A DNA stretch of 56,058 bases, from contig JAAYAN010000172.1 of the NCBI GenBank assembly GCA_012719345.1, positions 1 to 56,058 on the forward strand. Direction: 5' to 3'. The position numbers and the translations under genes were made by a program. This document shows positions 140 through 5,104 of this stretch, one piece after another. The notes beneath the pieces are model-generated. The model saw only the letters and a list, made by a program, of their open reading frames with translations, was not told the origin of the DNA and did not search any database. Positions within the stretch are counted from its first letter, which is position 1; each line of letters begins with the position of its first letter. The stretch is from Ignavibacteria bacterium (GTDB taxonomy: Bacteria > Bacteroidota > Ignavibacteria > Ignavibacteriales > Melioribacteraceae).

Positions 140-1342
140 TTAAAATTCTTTTTCATTATTGTTTTTCTGCAGACTTTCTTCTTTAAGCTTATTATAATAT
201 TCCAGCCAGTCTTTAGGGGTAGCGCTCAGCCTGATATCACGCAAATTCTGGAAATCAAATTCAGGAAGATCTGCAAAAAGATTGGCAATGTTAACAGCAA
301 TTTCAAAATTAAAGTGAGCCGTATTTATTTCAACTGCTTTTTTATGATTATATACAAATTCAACAATTCTTTCCGGCATTCCCCATAAAGCTAAAAAATA
401 AGCTCCTACTTCTGCATGCGATGTTCCGTATAAATGCTTTTCGGCAATTGAATATCTTATATTTTCCTGCTTCATCAGTTCAATCACTCTTTCAGGGTAA
501 TCCTTAATTTCCATAAAAACTATTTTACCTATATCGTGCAGCAATCCGGCAATATAAGCATCATCCATCATCTCAATTTCGTTTCCGAGAGTTTTACGTA
601 TAATTTCCTTTGCAAAACGACCGACTTTATTTCCGTGGTTCCACATCTCCTCAAAATATCTGTGCAAATCCTTATTAATACAATATTTAACCGAAAGATG
701 ATGAAACAGCAAAAGCGATTTAAGAATATTTCTTCCTAAAAAACTAACTGCTTGCGATGGGTCTGAAATCTGCTTAGCTAATCCGAAAAATGACGAATTA
801 ACTATTTTAAGGATTTTTGTAGTAAATGATATATCTTGTGAGATAATTTCGGCTATTTTCATAAGCGACATATCTTCCTGCGACAAAGCCTTATCGAGCT
901 TTACATAAGTATCGGGAATTGTAGGAAGTTCACTCATACCGTTAATAACTGCCATAAGAGAAGTATCGCTGAGATATTTTGTAAGGATATCAATTCTTTT
1001 AAGAATATCTTCAATTTTTCTTTTATCGAAAGGTTTAAGCAGCGTAAGATGCGCTGCGCGCGAGGCTTCGGCGCTTAAATTTCTTTCGAGGTTGCTTGAA
1101 AAAAGCACTCTGTATGTTTGCGGATATTTTTCGCGGATAAGTTCAAGAAGTTCTATCCCGTTTTTTTCAGGCATATGAAGATCGGCAAATACAACATATA
1201 TTTCATTTTTATCTAAAACAGAAAATAATTCACCAGGATCTGAAGTAAAAAACAGATTGTAAAGTTTATTGTCTTCGAAAATTTCCAAAAGCAAATTACC
1301 AATTTCCGGTTCGTCATCAATAAATAAAATATTCTTTGCCAA
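140..1342 (-). CDS. Response regulator with HDOD output domain
   Basis: This 400-residue cytosolic protein begins with a receiver domain (about 1-120). It shows the acidic pair D9/D10, the phospho-acceptor D54 in 'FADLHMP' and the conserved lysine K103 in 'LLKPFD'. An HDOD domain follows (about 128-330), with 'ILKIVNSSFFGL' and 'GLLHDIGK'. HDOD domains are HD-like helical folds found in signalling proteins; most are thought to be non-enzymatic or to act in nucleotide or cyclic-di-GMP related control, so no reaction is assigned. The gene lies 53 bases downstream of cheW on the same strand and is probably co-transcribed with it. A second HDOD protein is encoded about 3 kb away, so the locus looks like a small signalling island. 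The input kinase is not in the window. The domain call is firm; the physiological role is unknown. Confidence 0.88.
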   Translation of the reverse strand: MAKNILFIDDEPEIGNLLLEIFEDNKLYNLFFTSDPGELFSVLDKNEIYVVFADLHMPEKNGIELLELIREKYPQTYRVLFSSNLERNLSAEASRAAHLTLLKPFDKRKIEDILKRIDILTKYLSDTSLMAVINGMSELPTIPDTYVKLDKALSQEDMSLMKIAEIISQDISFTTKILKIVNSSFFGLAKQISDPSQAVSFLGRNILKSLLLFHHLSVKYCINKDLHRYFEEMWNHGNKVGRFAKEIIRKTLGNEIEMMDDAYIAGLLHDIGKIVFMEIKDYPERVIELMKQENIRYSIAEKHLYGTSHAEVGAYFLALWGMPERIVEFVYNHKKAVEINTAHFNFEIAVNIANLFADLPEFDFQNLRDIRLSATPKDWLEYYNKLKEESLQKNNNEKEF

Positions 1343-1395: not shown

Positions 1396-1872
1396 TTAAT
1401 TTACCTGCTTAATCTCATCTTCTTTTATAATTTTTTCGAGGTCAATTAAAATTATCAGCCTGTCTTCAAGTTTTGCCACAGCTTTAATAAATTCTGTTTC
1501 AATATTTGTTACCATATCCGGTGGAAGTTCGGTAATGCTTTCCGGAATTCGCAGCACTTCGCTAACTTCGTCAACAATAAAACCCAAAGTTTTTCCGCTT
1601 ATTTCTACAACAATAATTCTTGTTTTGCTGTCGTGTTCTTTTTTATCCATTCTTAAACGGGTTCTAAGGTCTATTACAGGAATTATCCTGCCTCTCAAAT
1701 TTACAACCCCTTCAACAAAAGCCGGAGAATTAGGCATTTTTGTTATGCCTATCATTTTATTTATTTCCTGAACCTGTAAAATGTCAACTGCAAACTCTTC
1801 TTTCCCTACACGAAATCCCACAAGCTGCAGAATTTTATCACCGGATTTTTCTTTTAATTCTGTCTGTTTCAT
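1396..1872 (-). CDS. cheW: CheW-type chemotaxis coupling protein
   Basis: This 158-residue single-domain CheW protein normally bridges chemoreceptors and the CheA kinase at the membrane. Visible family features are 'LVGFRVGKEEFAVDI' at the start of the fold, 'FVEGVVNLRGRIIPVIDLR', which is the classic CheW 'NLRG..IPVI' signature, and the closing 'ILIDLEKII'. The length is normal. It is the first gene of a leftward pair with the REC-HDOD regulator and is divergent from the REC/ligand-binding/CheW fusion, with about 200 bases between them that probably hold both promoters. The CheW domain of that fusion carries the same core signature, so the two may compete for or share a CheA. No cheA or receptor gene is in the window. 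Confidence 0.9.
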   Translation of the reverse strand: MKQTELKEKSGDKILQLVGFRVGKEEFAVDILQVQEINKMIGITKMPNSPAFVEGVVNLRGRIIPVIDLRTRLRMDKKEHDSKTRIIVVEISGKTLGFIVDEVSEVLRIPESITELPPDMVTNIETEFIKAVAKLEDRLIILIDLEKIIKEDEIKQVN

Positions 1873-2077: not shown

Positions 2078-4036
2078 ATGCCCTTGGATTTGAATGTAAA
2101 AATACTTCTTGTTGAAGATGCCCCCGTTATGCGAAAGATGGAACAGAAAGTATTAAATTCGTTAGGACTTAATAACATTATTGAAGCTGATAACGGTTTG
2201 AATGCTATAGAAAAATTGAATTCGGACAGCTCAATCGGTTTAATTATAAGTGATTGGAACATGCCTGATATGGACGGTTACGATCTTCTTCTTTGGGTCA
2301 GAAAAAATGCCAGAAATAAGAAAATACCGTTTCTTATGGCTACCGGAAGGGGTGAAAAAAAGGAAGTTGCCAAAGCGGAAGATGCTGGAGTAAGCAGTTT
2401 TATTTCCAAACCTTTTAATGCCGAAGAACTTAAAATTAAAATTGAAGAAGCTTTAGGAATCAGAAAATCAGAAAAAGCTGACTTATTTGAAAGACCTCAG
2501 ATTATTGAACTTCCCAACGGTAAAATCAAACTAAGAATGGCACATATTCAGATAACTGATCATCTTGTTCTCGGAGTGCTTAAACATTTAATAGAAAACA
2601 ACGAATTTAAACCCAAACATTTCGAACTTGAAACACAATGTATGTCCAGCTGGAATCCTGTTGCCGAAGCTCTGGAAAAAGGCACTGTTGAAGGAGCTTG
2701 CGTTCTTGCGCCTATTGCGATGGATTTATTCAGTTATAATGTTCCGTTAAAGCTTATATTGTACGCACACAAAAACGGAAGTATTGCGGTGCGTAATAAA
2801 GCCGGAAAAGAGTACAAAGAACCCTATCCGGATTTTTTCAAAGGAAAATCATTTTATATACCTCACACTTTGTCCATTCATAATATGCTCGCACATATAT
2901 TCTTTAAGGGAATAGGTCTTGAACCAGGTTATGCCGGAAAAGCAGGAAGCGATTTAAACTTTGAAGTTGTTCCGCCGGTTAAAATGCCCGAATTCTTAAA
3001 CGGAAATGAAGAAAGCTGCGGTTATCTTGTTGCAGAACCACTCGGCACAAAAGCAATAGCGGCAGGAATAGCAGAGCAACAGTTCCTTTCGGCAGAATTG
3101 TGGCCCGATCATCCTTGCTGTGTTGTTACGCTTCAGGATGAATTAGTTAAAAAATATCCCGATGCTGTTTATGAACTTACAGAATTGATAGTTAAATCCG
3201 GGAAATTTATTTCGGATAAACCGGGAATGGCGGCGCAAATTGCAGTTGATTTTCTTGATCCGCAAAAAACTTTAGGTTTAAAAGTACCTCTGTTAAAAAA
3301 TGTTCTTACAGAACCTTTAGGAATTAAAACAAATGATTTATATCCACTTAAAGAAGATCTCGATCGTATACAAAAATATATGCACTACGAAATGGGAGTC
3401 GGCAATTTAATAGATATCAATGAATTTGTAGACCTCCGCTTTGCTGATAAAGTTTGCGGAAATCCATCAAAAAACAGCCACAGTGCCGAAGCTCTTAAAA
3501 ATTCCGCAGAAACTGCAAAAAAACTGCTCAACAAAATATCCAATTCAGAAAAAAACACTTCTTCAAAAACACTTTTAAATATGGAAGGGAAATATCTTAC
3601 CTTCAATCTTAACAATCAGGAGTTTGGTATTGATATTTTAAAAATAGTTGAAATAATAAGACTTATTCCTATTACACGGGTACCGAACGCTGATAAATCC
3701 GTTAAAGGTGTTATAAATCTTCGCGGAAAAGTTATTCCTGTTATTGACGTCCGAAAAATTCTTGATATGGTTTCCGCTGAATACCAAAAACAAAGCCGCA
3801 TAATTGTTATTGACACAAAAATGGGTGATTATTCGGAACAGCTCGGTATTTTAGTTGATTCGGTATCCGAAGTAAAAGATATAAAAGCTTCCGATATTCA
3901 AGAAGCTCCCAAACTTTCGGAAACTGAAGATATCAGTTACATTATGGCAATAGCCAAAGCCGAAAATTGCAATCAGATTCTGCTTGATTTAGAAAAACTT
4001 CTGTTCCGGAAGACAAATATTAAATATGTTGCATAA
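2078..4036 (+). CDS. Fusion: receiver domain, NrtA/CmpA-like ligand-binding domain, CheW domain
   Basis: This 652-residue protein has an unusual architecture. Residues 1-125 form a receiver domain with acidic E13/D14, phospho-acceptor D59 in 'ISDWNMPD' and K111 in 'FISKPF'. Residues about 148-460 resemble the NMT1/SsuA-like solute-binding proteins of the NrtA/CmpA/NasS type ('LRMAHIQITDHLVLG', 'LETQCMSSWNPVAEALEKG', 'FYIPHTLSIHN'). A polar linker (about 461-500) leads to a CheW domain (502-645) with 'VKGVINLRGKVIPVIDVRK'. There is no signal peptide, so the binding domain should be cytosolic. The cytosolic NrtA homologue NasS senses nitrate/nitrite, so a small-anion sensor coupled to chemotaxis is possible (inference). 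The ATG follows a GAGG ribosome-binding site, and one uninterrupted frame spans all three domains. The domain calls are solid; the ligand is unknown. Confidence 0.82.
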   Translation: MPLDLNVKILLVEDAPVMRKMEQKVLNSLGLNNIIEADNGLNAIEKLNSDSSIGLIISDWNMPDMDGYDLLLWVRKNARNKKIPFLMATGRGEKKEVAKAEDAGVSSFISKPFNAEELKIKIEEALGIRKSEKADLFERPQIIELPNGKIKLRMAHIQITDHLVLGVLKHLIENNEFKPKHFELETQCMSSWNPVAEALEKGTVEGACVLAPIAMDLFSYNVPLKLILYAHKNGSIAVRNKAGKEYKEPYPDFFKGKSFYIPHTLSIHNMLAHIFFKGIGLEPGYAGKAGSDLNFEVVPPVKMPEFLNGNEESCGYLVAEPLGTKAIAAGIAEQQFLSAELWPDHPCCVVTLQDELVKKYPDAVYELTELIVKSGKFISDKPGMAAQIAVDFLDPQKTLGLKVPLLKNVLTEPLGIKTNDLYPLKEDLDRIQKYMHYEMGVGNLIDINEFVDLRFADKVCGNPSKNSHSAEALKNSAETAKKLLNKISNSEKNTSSKTLLNMEGKYLTFNLNNQEFGIDILKIVEIIRLIPITRVPNADKSVKGVINLRGKVIPVIDVRKILDMVSAEYQKQSRIIVIDTKMGDYSEQLGILVDSVSEVKDIKASDIQEAPKLSETEDISYIMAIAKAENCNQILLDLEKLLFRKTNIKYVA

Positions 4037-4231: not shown

Positions 4232-5104
4232 ATGGAACAACAAATTTTACAAGAGAAAAGGGACAGAACCAAACTGGTTCTCACTAATGTTTACAACCTG
4301 CCTGCAATGTCCGGAACAATGAAAGAAGTTTCCGAAATGCTGGATGACCCGAACACAAACAGTCAGCGCTTGGGAAGAATGATTGGGCGCGATCAGGCAA
4401 TAGCAACAAAAATACTGTCTATTTCAAATTCCCCGATGTACGGATTACGCCGAAAAGTTACCACAATAGATTTTGCTATTCTTGTTCTTGGGTTTCTTGA
4501 AATAAAGAAGATTGTGCTTGCTCTTTCTTTGATGGAATCGTTTAAGAATAAAACCGATAAGTATCTCGATCAGAAAAAATTCTGGCTTCATTCAATTCTT
4601 ACAGGAAGCGCAGCAAAAAGAGTAGCAGAAGACCTTGGTTACAGAATCGGAGGAGAAGCATTTATTGCAGGATTGCTTCACGATCTTGGAATTCCTGTTA
4701 TTCACAAATATTTTCATTCAAGTTTTATCGAAATTGTTACAAATGTTGAAACTGCCAAAGTTAAATTTAAAGATGCCGAAACAAGCCAGCTTGGATATAA
4801 TCATGCCGATATAGGTATGTTTCTTTCTGAAAAATGGAATCTTCCTATTGAATTGTGCGATACAGTTCAAAACCATCACCAACCTTCAAAAGCTTCCGAA
4901 AACAGAGTGCTTGCTTCCATTGTACATCTTGCAGATTATATGACACAGCATTTGCAGGTCGGCGATTTTTATTGGGATAGCGATATGGAACTTGATCCAG
5001 CAATATTGGATATACTTAAATTCAGCTCGGTTGACGATATGCACCATTTTATTGAAAAATACAAACCCTTGTTTGAAGATGAGGCTAAAGCTCTTAATTT
5101 ATAG
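4232..5104 (+). CDS. HDOD domain signalling protein
   Basis: This 290-residue protein consists almost entirely of one HDOD domain (about 15-215). Visible motifs are 'YNLPAMSGTMKEV', 'ATKILSISNSPMYGL', 'AGLLHDLGIPVIHKY' with the HD pair at 150-151, and 'NHADIGMFLSEKWNLP' followed by 'NHHQP'. Unlike the first HDOD protein in the window it has no receiver domain. It follows the REC/ligand-binding/CheW fusion on the same strand after 195 AT-rich bases, so it may have its own promoter. It ends at a clear hairpin terminator. The clustering suggests a role in signal-dependent control of motility or cell state, but the sequence gives no specific function. Confidence 0.87.
   Translation: MEQQILQEKRDRTKLVLTNVYNLPAMSGTMKEVSEMLDDPNTNSQRLGRMIGRDQAIATKILSISNSPMYGLRRKVTTIDFAILVLGFLEIKKIVLALSLMESFKNKTDKYLDQKKFWLHSILTGSAAKRVAEDLGYRIGGEAFIAGLLHDLGIPVIHKYFHSSFIEIVTNVETAKVKFKDAETSQLGYNHADIGMFLSEKWNLPIELCDTVQNHHQPSKASENRVLASIVHLADYMTQHLQVGDFYWDSDMELDPAILDILKFSSVDDMHHFIEKYKPLFEDEAKALNL

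Follow-up and report, generated by a model that had tools for sequence, protein, structure and literature searches.

What a protein does that holds a solute-binding domain between a phosphorylatable receiver and a chemotaxis coupling domain is the question raised by one gene of an Ignavibacteria bacterium (assembly GCA_012719345.1, contig JAAYAN010000172.1), located in the 56,058-nucleotide stretch of DNA analysed here (positions 1 to 56,058; the window). The gene (2078..4036, forward strand) starts with ATG and encodes 652 residues in one open reading frame without internal stop. An earlier note on the window had read it as a three-part fusion of a complete receiver, a binding domain of the NrtA/CmpA/NasS type and a complete CheW domain. 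Pfam scans agree: Response_reg (PF00072; residues 9–122, 2102..2443; E 7.7e-24), NMT1_2 (PF13379; residues 150–389 of a middle domain spanning residues 148–462, 2519..3463; E 3e-23, 83.4 bits against a cut-off of 24.7) and CheW (residues 505–642, 3590..4003; E 1.8e-32) all exceed their gathering scores, and no other family, CheR included, is found in the protein at E ≤ 1. The receiver begins at residue 9 and therefore leaves no space for a signal peptide; the protein is presumably cytosolic, as the note had it. A further hallmark of ATP-binding cassette (ABC) importers, an adjoining permease or ATPase gene, is absent as well. We consider it probable that the fusion is a cytosolic coupling protein akin to CheV and CheWS, with a CheW domain that docks in CheA-receptor arrays and a receiver that is phosphorylated on D59, and that it reports an intracellular ligand.

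The note had raised a sequencing error that joins separate genes as one way in which the fusion could be spurious. Such a join, whether from sequencing or assembly, is ruled out by recurring full-length, uninterrupted homologues. In a set of 58 genomes (the organism's own and 57 relatives), full-length copies with 55–63% identity and no internal stop occur in eight of the 57 relatives. A collection scan yielded 79 loci, 58 of which were combined with the window in an alignment of 59 rows (A2). The CheW part is present in 32 of these rows, i.e. in 31 besides the window, one of which (L090) is a genome already counted among the relatives. Because full-length uninterrupted copies recur in this manner, the REC-NMT1_2-CheW join is real. 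By record names, the rows belong to Thermodesulfobacteriota, KSB1, Ignavibacteriota, Bacteroidota and an uncultured Thiotrichales metagenome-assembled genome, and the distribution is patchy. Desulfatibacillum alkenivorans, Desulfacinum hydrothermale and Desulfurivibrio sp. AMeS2 are among the carriers in culture. In the phylum of Desulfatibacillum, 10 of 198 genomes (the centre itself counted) match the binding-domain profile at E ≤ 1e-60, nine of them in frames of 645–734 residues; for the window's phylum, the figure at E ≤ 1e-8 is 22 of 296 genomes, only four of which have the match in a frame of fusion length. Loci L097–L107 (partial or lacking the binding domain), L067, L077 and L094 (partial), L083, and six loci with another architecture or an insert (L058, L063, L065, L068, L073 and L093) were omitted from the alignment; all of the last six entered the tree described below. 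L014 and L090 are apparently one genome, as their places overlap, and the tree holds L090 only.

An AlphaFold2 model of the fusion, built with the 59-row alignment, had a mean predicted local distance difference test score (pLDDT) of 90.4 and a predicted template modelling score (pTM) of 0.83. Residues 148–478 superpose on NrtA (2g29) with Z 36.4 and a root-mean-square deviation (rmsd) of 2.6 for 315 aligned residues, and residues 149–462 superpose on 3un6 with Z 35.6 and an rmsd of 2.2 for 288 aligned residues (both VIA). CmpA (Z 35.5) and the regulatory domain of CmpC (Z about 35) match similarly, TauA, SsuA and Thi5 more distantly (Z 23–27). The middle domain thus combines the NMT1_2 profile with a predicted periplasmic-binding fold, in line with the comparison to NrtA and CmpA that the note had suggested. 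Middle domain and receiver took up the whole VIA list; the CheW fold was tested by Foldseek instead, which matched the CheW part to CheW structures (8c5v_E, 2qdl) and the receiver to CheY.

Both the phosphorylation residues and the pocket region are conserved. The phospho-acceptor D59 and the residues D14, T89 and K111 do not vary in any of the 59 aligned rows, the window's among them. In the 32 rows of the CheW type, mean pairwise identity is highest in the binding domain (0.61), followed by the receiver (0.55) and the CheW domain (0.49), in which R549 of the NLR motif is kept in 32 of 32 rows, and falls to 0.21 in the variable linker ahead of CheW (residues 463–504; 3464..3589). That the binding domain is best conserved fits the expectation for a functional pocket. 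The tree set includes 73 receiver-linked binding domains. At 21 positions examined in these, H156, I157, T160, D161, H162, W192, N193, H231, G234, S235, P262, H263, S266, H268, W342, H345, P346, C347 and C348 are found in all 73, Q158 in 72 and N233 in 67; twelve pocket-region residues, so assigned by alignment to NrtA, are unchanged throughout. The motif HIQITDHL (residues 156–163; 2543..2566) is a trait of the receiver-linked clade: most stand-alone proteins show Y/F-L-P-I in place of HIQI, and importer proteins mostly have YLPIT where the fusion has HIQIT. The HPCC motif (residues 345–348; 3110..3121) is more widely shared, as the 15 stand-alone rows retain W192 in 14, H268 in 12, H345 in 13, C347 in 12 and C348 in 13 cases. 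The fusion qualifies for what we term the HxCC group, a grouping of our own defined by W192, H268 and H-x-C-C at 345–348; HxCC, or at least CC, is common to importer proteins, namely 3un6 (CC) and plasmid or chromosomal ABC systems.

The own genome offers a chemotaxis system to which such a protein could couple. It contains two CheA genes, on contigs C157 and C217, and six CheW matches, of which two fall within CheA; MCP signalling domains that score above cut-off are present in seven frames. CheW domains normally act together with receptors; given this and the seven MCP frames, the note's proposal that the ligand would feed into CheA without a membrane receptor is unsupported. Contig C157 encodes a single-domain receiver, a CheZ-like protein below the Pfam cut-off (22.5 against 30.7 bits), CheA and CheB, adjoining genes that by eye are of flagellar type. 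On C157, CheW is matched only inside CheA, so the window's stand-alone CheW gene (1396..1872, reverse strand, divergent from the fusion gene) is a likely CheW gene for that cluster, and its product a probable partner of the fusion. Within the window and three other contig stretches of the own genome, the best match of the fusion's receiver is the single-domain receiver of C157 (40%, E 5e-31), and that of its CheW domain is the window's stand-alone CheW (40%). The fusion is conserved as a unit whose carriers also have CheA: 9 of 9 fusion-carrying genomes contain it, versus 32 of 49 genomes lacking the fusion (Fisher one-sided p 0.033, kinship not corrected).

Che genes also stand beside individual relatives. 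In Desulfamplus magnetovallimortis the fusion gene is followed by a receiver gene and CheA, and in Desulfatibacillum alkenivorans the fusion gene is separated by a CheX gene from the gene for a stand-alone cytosolic HPCC protein. A version of the module ending in STAS (L065) directly precedes CheA, and a version ending in SpoIIE (L068) comes after CheA, CheW and CheR. A neighbourhood scan of 72 loci, which had unequal spans, included some close relatives or repeated genomes and had no control set, found CheA in 5 spans (L065, L068, L074, L093 and L156), MCP in 6, CheD in 10, CheX in 2 and HDOD in 9. Names were checked by Pfam for CheA in L065, L068, L093 and L156, MCP in L020 and L049, both CheX genes and CheD in L085. 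As the gene caller missed the fusion gene itself in L046, L055 and L072, the counts of other genes may also be too low. At L049 (7321–9837), a receptor gene with Cache, CZB and MCP signalling domains stands directly ahead of the fusion gene. On another contig of the own genome (C213; L028, 8155–9063), we noticed a 302-residue protein with a C-terminal CheW domain and a long N-terminal extension that has no Pfam match, near an ExeA-like ATPase gene and two STAS-like genes, all three named by eye.

Based on these results, we suggest the following mechanism for the coupling protein. Its CheW domain would dock the fusion in CheA-receptor arrays, next to the ordinary CheW encoded next door. The receiver would accept phosphate on D59, probably from CheA and in the manner of CheV, as a feedback or gating input. 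Gating by receiver phosphorylation, as the note had proposed, is plausible; CheX-type phosphatase genes lie near the fusion gene in two related loci. The middle domain, presumably derived from the solute-binding protein of an ABC importer and now retained in the cell, would close on a small intracellular molecule, of the ligand class bound by HxCC-type NrtA/SsuA relatives. Ligand and phosphate would jointly change the way in which receptors are coupled to CheA through the CheW domain, such that the internal state would bias swimming, in a direction that we can only infer. Several observations weigh against this proposal. The association of the fusion with CheA is statistically weak. In eight of nine Ignavibacteria/Bacteroidota-type loci (L017–L022, L024, L090 and L092), the span has no recognised che gene; L020 contains an MCP gene. 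Moreover, 27 of the 59 aligned rows, one of them doubtful, are versions of the module without CheW, and with so many such versions chemotaxis would be one output of several.

Other functions for the middle domain have to be weighed against ligand reporting through CheW. The note had thought of a nitrate, nitrite or bicarbonate sensor of the NasS, NrtA or CmpA type, and the fold (Z 35–36 to NrtA and CmpA) is indeed the one expected. In a profile alignment with NrtA, W192 and H268 correspond to W102 and H196, but C348 occupies the place of K269 and S235 that of Q155, all four of which we take to be nitrate-binding residues of NrtA. With C348 at the K269 position this reading loses a key residue, and the pocket instead carries the HxCC signature, so nitrate, nitrite or bicarbonate appears an unlikely ligand. 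NasS, by contrast, is reported to retain all nitrate-coordinating residues (PMC3795266). In addition, the own genome contains no NMT1_2 domain besides that of the fusion, hence no NrtA/SsuA-type importer of this Pfam family, and the ligand would have to arise inside the cell or enter in another way. Taken as a whole, we give the nitrate-type sensor very little credence. Hardly more probable is that the middle domain has lost ligand binding and acts as a scaffold or protein-interaction domain, the protein being a large CheV. CheV-type proteins consist of a CheW-like domain and a receiver and need no sensor domain (PMC12691637), which would be consistent with this idea; however, the pocket-region residues are invariant over at least three phyla (by record names) and five outputs, and the binding domain outranks both the receiver and the CheW domain in conservation.

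The main competing explanation, improbable in our view but well ahead of the two just discussed, is a metal or redox sensor, in which the set H156, H162, H231, H263, H268, H345, C347 and C348 would bind a metal or react with an oxidant or a nitric oxide-like species, and no nutrient or metabolite would be reported. None of the eight residues varies in the 73 receiver-linked domains. By sequence, the nearest relative of known structure is 3un6, which bears the title "with zinc bound" and retains the aligned tryptophan, both histidines of IPHxxSxH and the CC pair. The structural matches also include Thi5, a cytosolic enzyme of the same fold in which a histidine and a motif of the CC type presumably act with iron. 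The hybrid cluster protein Hcp occurs in three of nine fusion genomes (G012, G013 and G024) versus none of 49 others (p 0.0027, corrected neither for kinship nor for the families tried). On the other hand, HxCC is found in ordinary ABC importer proteins too, with C348 in 13 of 15 stand-alone rows, and Hcp was not found in the own genome; given this negative, the several families tried and the uncorrected kinship, the Hcp co-occurrence carries little weight.

If the fusion is a ligand-reporting coupling protein, its importer relatives might hint at the ligand. We know of no established ligand for HxCC binding proteins, and the gene contexts of the importer relatives disagree on a single one. 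Within the window's phylum, the closest ABC importer relatives found adjoin CooS-type genes: at L130 (3061–5157) TIGR01702 scores 503.7 bits against a cut-off of 478, at L133 it stays below the cut-off with 449.9 bits, and at L131 (2870–4873) Pfam Prismane scores 466.8 bits. On the Ruminococcus albus plasmid pRUMAL02, an annotated cooS follows the importer. HxCC-type binding proteins thus stand beside an anaerobic carbon monoxide dehydrogenase-type gene at L130 (442–5157), L131 (1874–4873) and L146 (6983–11721), the last of which, from a Ruminococcus albus plasmid, has an annotated permease and ATPase and carries CC without the H. A ligand linked to carbon monoxide or its dehydrogenase was nevertheless rejected for the fusion: CooS is above cut-off in none of the 58 genomes, three weak matches overlapping Hcp genes, so the link does not extend to the fusion.

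Further importer relatives adjoin acyl-CoA-dehydrogenase-like genes (L144, L145, L147, L148, L149 and L151), a cyanase gene (L152) or both (L150). On plasmid pANL (L145, 3797–10993), acyl-CoA-dehydrogenase-like, DUF4242 and cysteine synthase genes occur together with an HxCC importer, possibly as a sulfur-related uptake cassette, and in T. roseum and Pseudonocardia such importers again have acyl-CoA-dehydrogenase-like and DUF4242 genes next to them. Guesses at the ligand are small linear molecules, for example cyanate or thiocyanate, and organosulfur compounds.

The receiver and binding domain also occur together outside the CheW fusion. Among the endings recognised by Pfam in relatives of this core are none at all, HATPase_c_2 with STAS (L065) and SpoIIE (L068), while at L058 a histidine kinase stands ahead of receiver-NMT1 and at L073 two receiver-NMT1 units precede one CheW; L065, L068, L058 and L073 each represent one locus. 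Output types were assigned by Pfam for 12 receiver-NMT1 proteins and for the others by coverage of the CheW region in the alignment or by length. A tblastn search with CheW domains against 17 loci without CheW output matched only separate CheW genes, in L065 and L068. One of the loci without CheW output, L062, is doubtful, as its contig ends 119 bp past the stop codon, and it may be a frameshifted copy.

In a quick IQ-TREE tree of 88 binding domains, with support from the Shimodaira–Hasegawa-like approximate likelihood-ratio test (SH-aLRT) only, the 73 receiver-linked NMT1 domains form one clade (99); 42 rows of the tree set have CheW output. The nearest outsiders are three cytosolic stand-alone domains (99), and importer proteins lie beyond these; owing to long branches, the exact placement of several outsiders is unsure. 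The output label requires at least six changes on this tree. Sixteen Desulfobacter-type loci and one Desulfurivibrio locus, L039, have in their span a permease gene belonging to one cluster; in L039, importer genes lie about 5–9 kb from the CheW fusion. At L085, Pfam recognises an array of CheD, a cytosolic NMT1_2 protein, an ABC ATPase, an NMT1_2 protein with a weak Tat-signal match, a permease, REC-NMT1, an unknown gene (scanned in the L082 member) and Hpt. Importer genes near the module suggest that it descends from an importer, with which it perhaps shares its ligand. At L082 (11396–12193) and 16 similar loci, Desulfobacter-type and similar, an acidic gene follows REC-NMT1; Pfam found no match in the one member scanned. 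In the 16 sequences aligned, the N-terminal ITDPxVIKxGEKDLIES and the C-terminal DILKESRxFWExKK are conserved around a variable acidic middle.

We tentatively suggest, with rather less confidence than we place in the coupling function, that the receiver and the HxCC binding domain form a portable sensor in one piece, so far unnamed, that amounts to a NasS-type binding protein fused to a NasT-type receiver. It may have arisen once from an ABC importer protein, via a cytosolic stand-alone stage, and later been joined to several outputs, namely CheW coupling, HATPase/STAS partner switching, a SpoIIE-type phosphatase and a hybrid histidine kinase, besides an output-less form in an importer operon. 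One intracellular ligand could then steer both swimming and further responses, the sensitivity being set by the receiver.

Parts of this design are known from other systems. The fusion resembles CheWS of Treponema denticola, a CheW-fused S-adenosylmethionine sensor that is anchored to arrays and was presented in 2023 as the first sensor fused to CheW to be characterised, in that its CheW domain is joined to what sequence and predicted fold indicate to be an intracellular small-molecule-binding domain (PMC10653840). The sensor of CheWS is, however, a C-terminal CheR-like domain, whereas the fusion has an NrtA/SsuA-type domain before CheW and a phosphorylatable receiver. With CheV, a phospho-mimic of which binds certain receptors, it shares one CheW-like domain and one phosphorylatable receiver per protein (PMC12691637), but has the receiver first and a 315-residue binding domain between receiver and CheW. 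In NasS-NasT, a cytosolic NrtA-like protein without export signal, as in the middle of the fusion, is paired with a CheY-like receiver protein, which it holds until nitrate or nitrite binds; there, receiver and binding protein are not joined, the nitrate residues of NasS are kept, and NasT has ANTAR at its end (PMC3795266). An NrtA-type domain on a cytosolic protein is also seen at the C termini of NrtC and CmpC (PDB 8wm7, 9u9z, 9uai and 9uak), where it is thought to be regulatory (PMC11349869), but there it sits on an ABC ATPase without receiver or CheW. The HxCC importer proteins (3un6 of S. aureus; L130, L131 and L146 beside CooS-type genes; L145 of pANL; L144 of T. roseum) agree with the fusion at W192, H268 and the CC positions. 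They differ in having mostly export-type N-termini (by eye, with one weak TAT_signal match at L085) and an adjoining permease and ATPase where seen; those from our loci fall outside the receiver-linked clade, past the cytosolic stand-alone forms, and 3un6 is not in the tree. The order in CheV we take to be CheW followed by the receiver, with no further domain. As the note had surmised, we found no description of the order REC-NMT1_2-CheW in the literature searched, although the 30 further undescribed CheW architectures counted in PMC10653840 (Fig. S10) may contain it.

The remaining neighbours of the fusion gene were named by Pfam, apart from arginine-biosynthesis-like genes named by eye. An HDOD-domain gene (4232..5104, forward strand) follows co-directionally 195 bp downstream, and a REC-HDOD gene (140..1342, reverse strand) lies downstream of the divergent CheW gene, such that between 140 and 5104 the CheW and fusion genes are bracketed by two HDOD proteins, one carrying a receiver. 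Conservation of the HDOD neighbourhood, which the note had named as support for a system, is seen in six related loci of one group (L034, L035, L043, L044, L045 and L056), where HDOD lies within about 650 bp of the fusion gene in convergent orientation (name checked by Pfam in L034); most other loci lack it. ANTAR is absent, by Pfam, from the fusion and the four neighbouring genes, the rest of the genome not having been searched for it.

The fusion is filed with the CheW-fused internal sensors, an already known kind; less expected is the receiver-plus-binding-domain module, which can be reused and occurs with several outputs. The HxCC pocket marks a group of binding proteins that stand beside CooS-type, cyanase and acyl-CoA-dehydrogenase-like genes, so that identifying one HxCC ligand would inform many transporters. 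As a soluble, tractable protein, the fusion would also lend itself to studying how ligand and phosphate signals combine in an array. CheW is usually regarded as a passive linker. The present design, which recurs in several bacterial groups, would let an intracellular molecule speak directly to the chemotaxis machinery, and as a second, unrelated CheW-sensor design it would make adaptor-based internal sensing a more general theme in chemotaxis.

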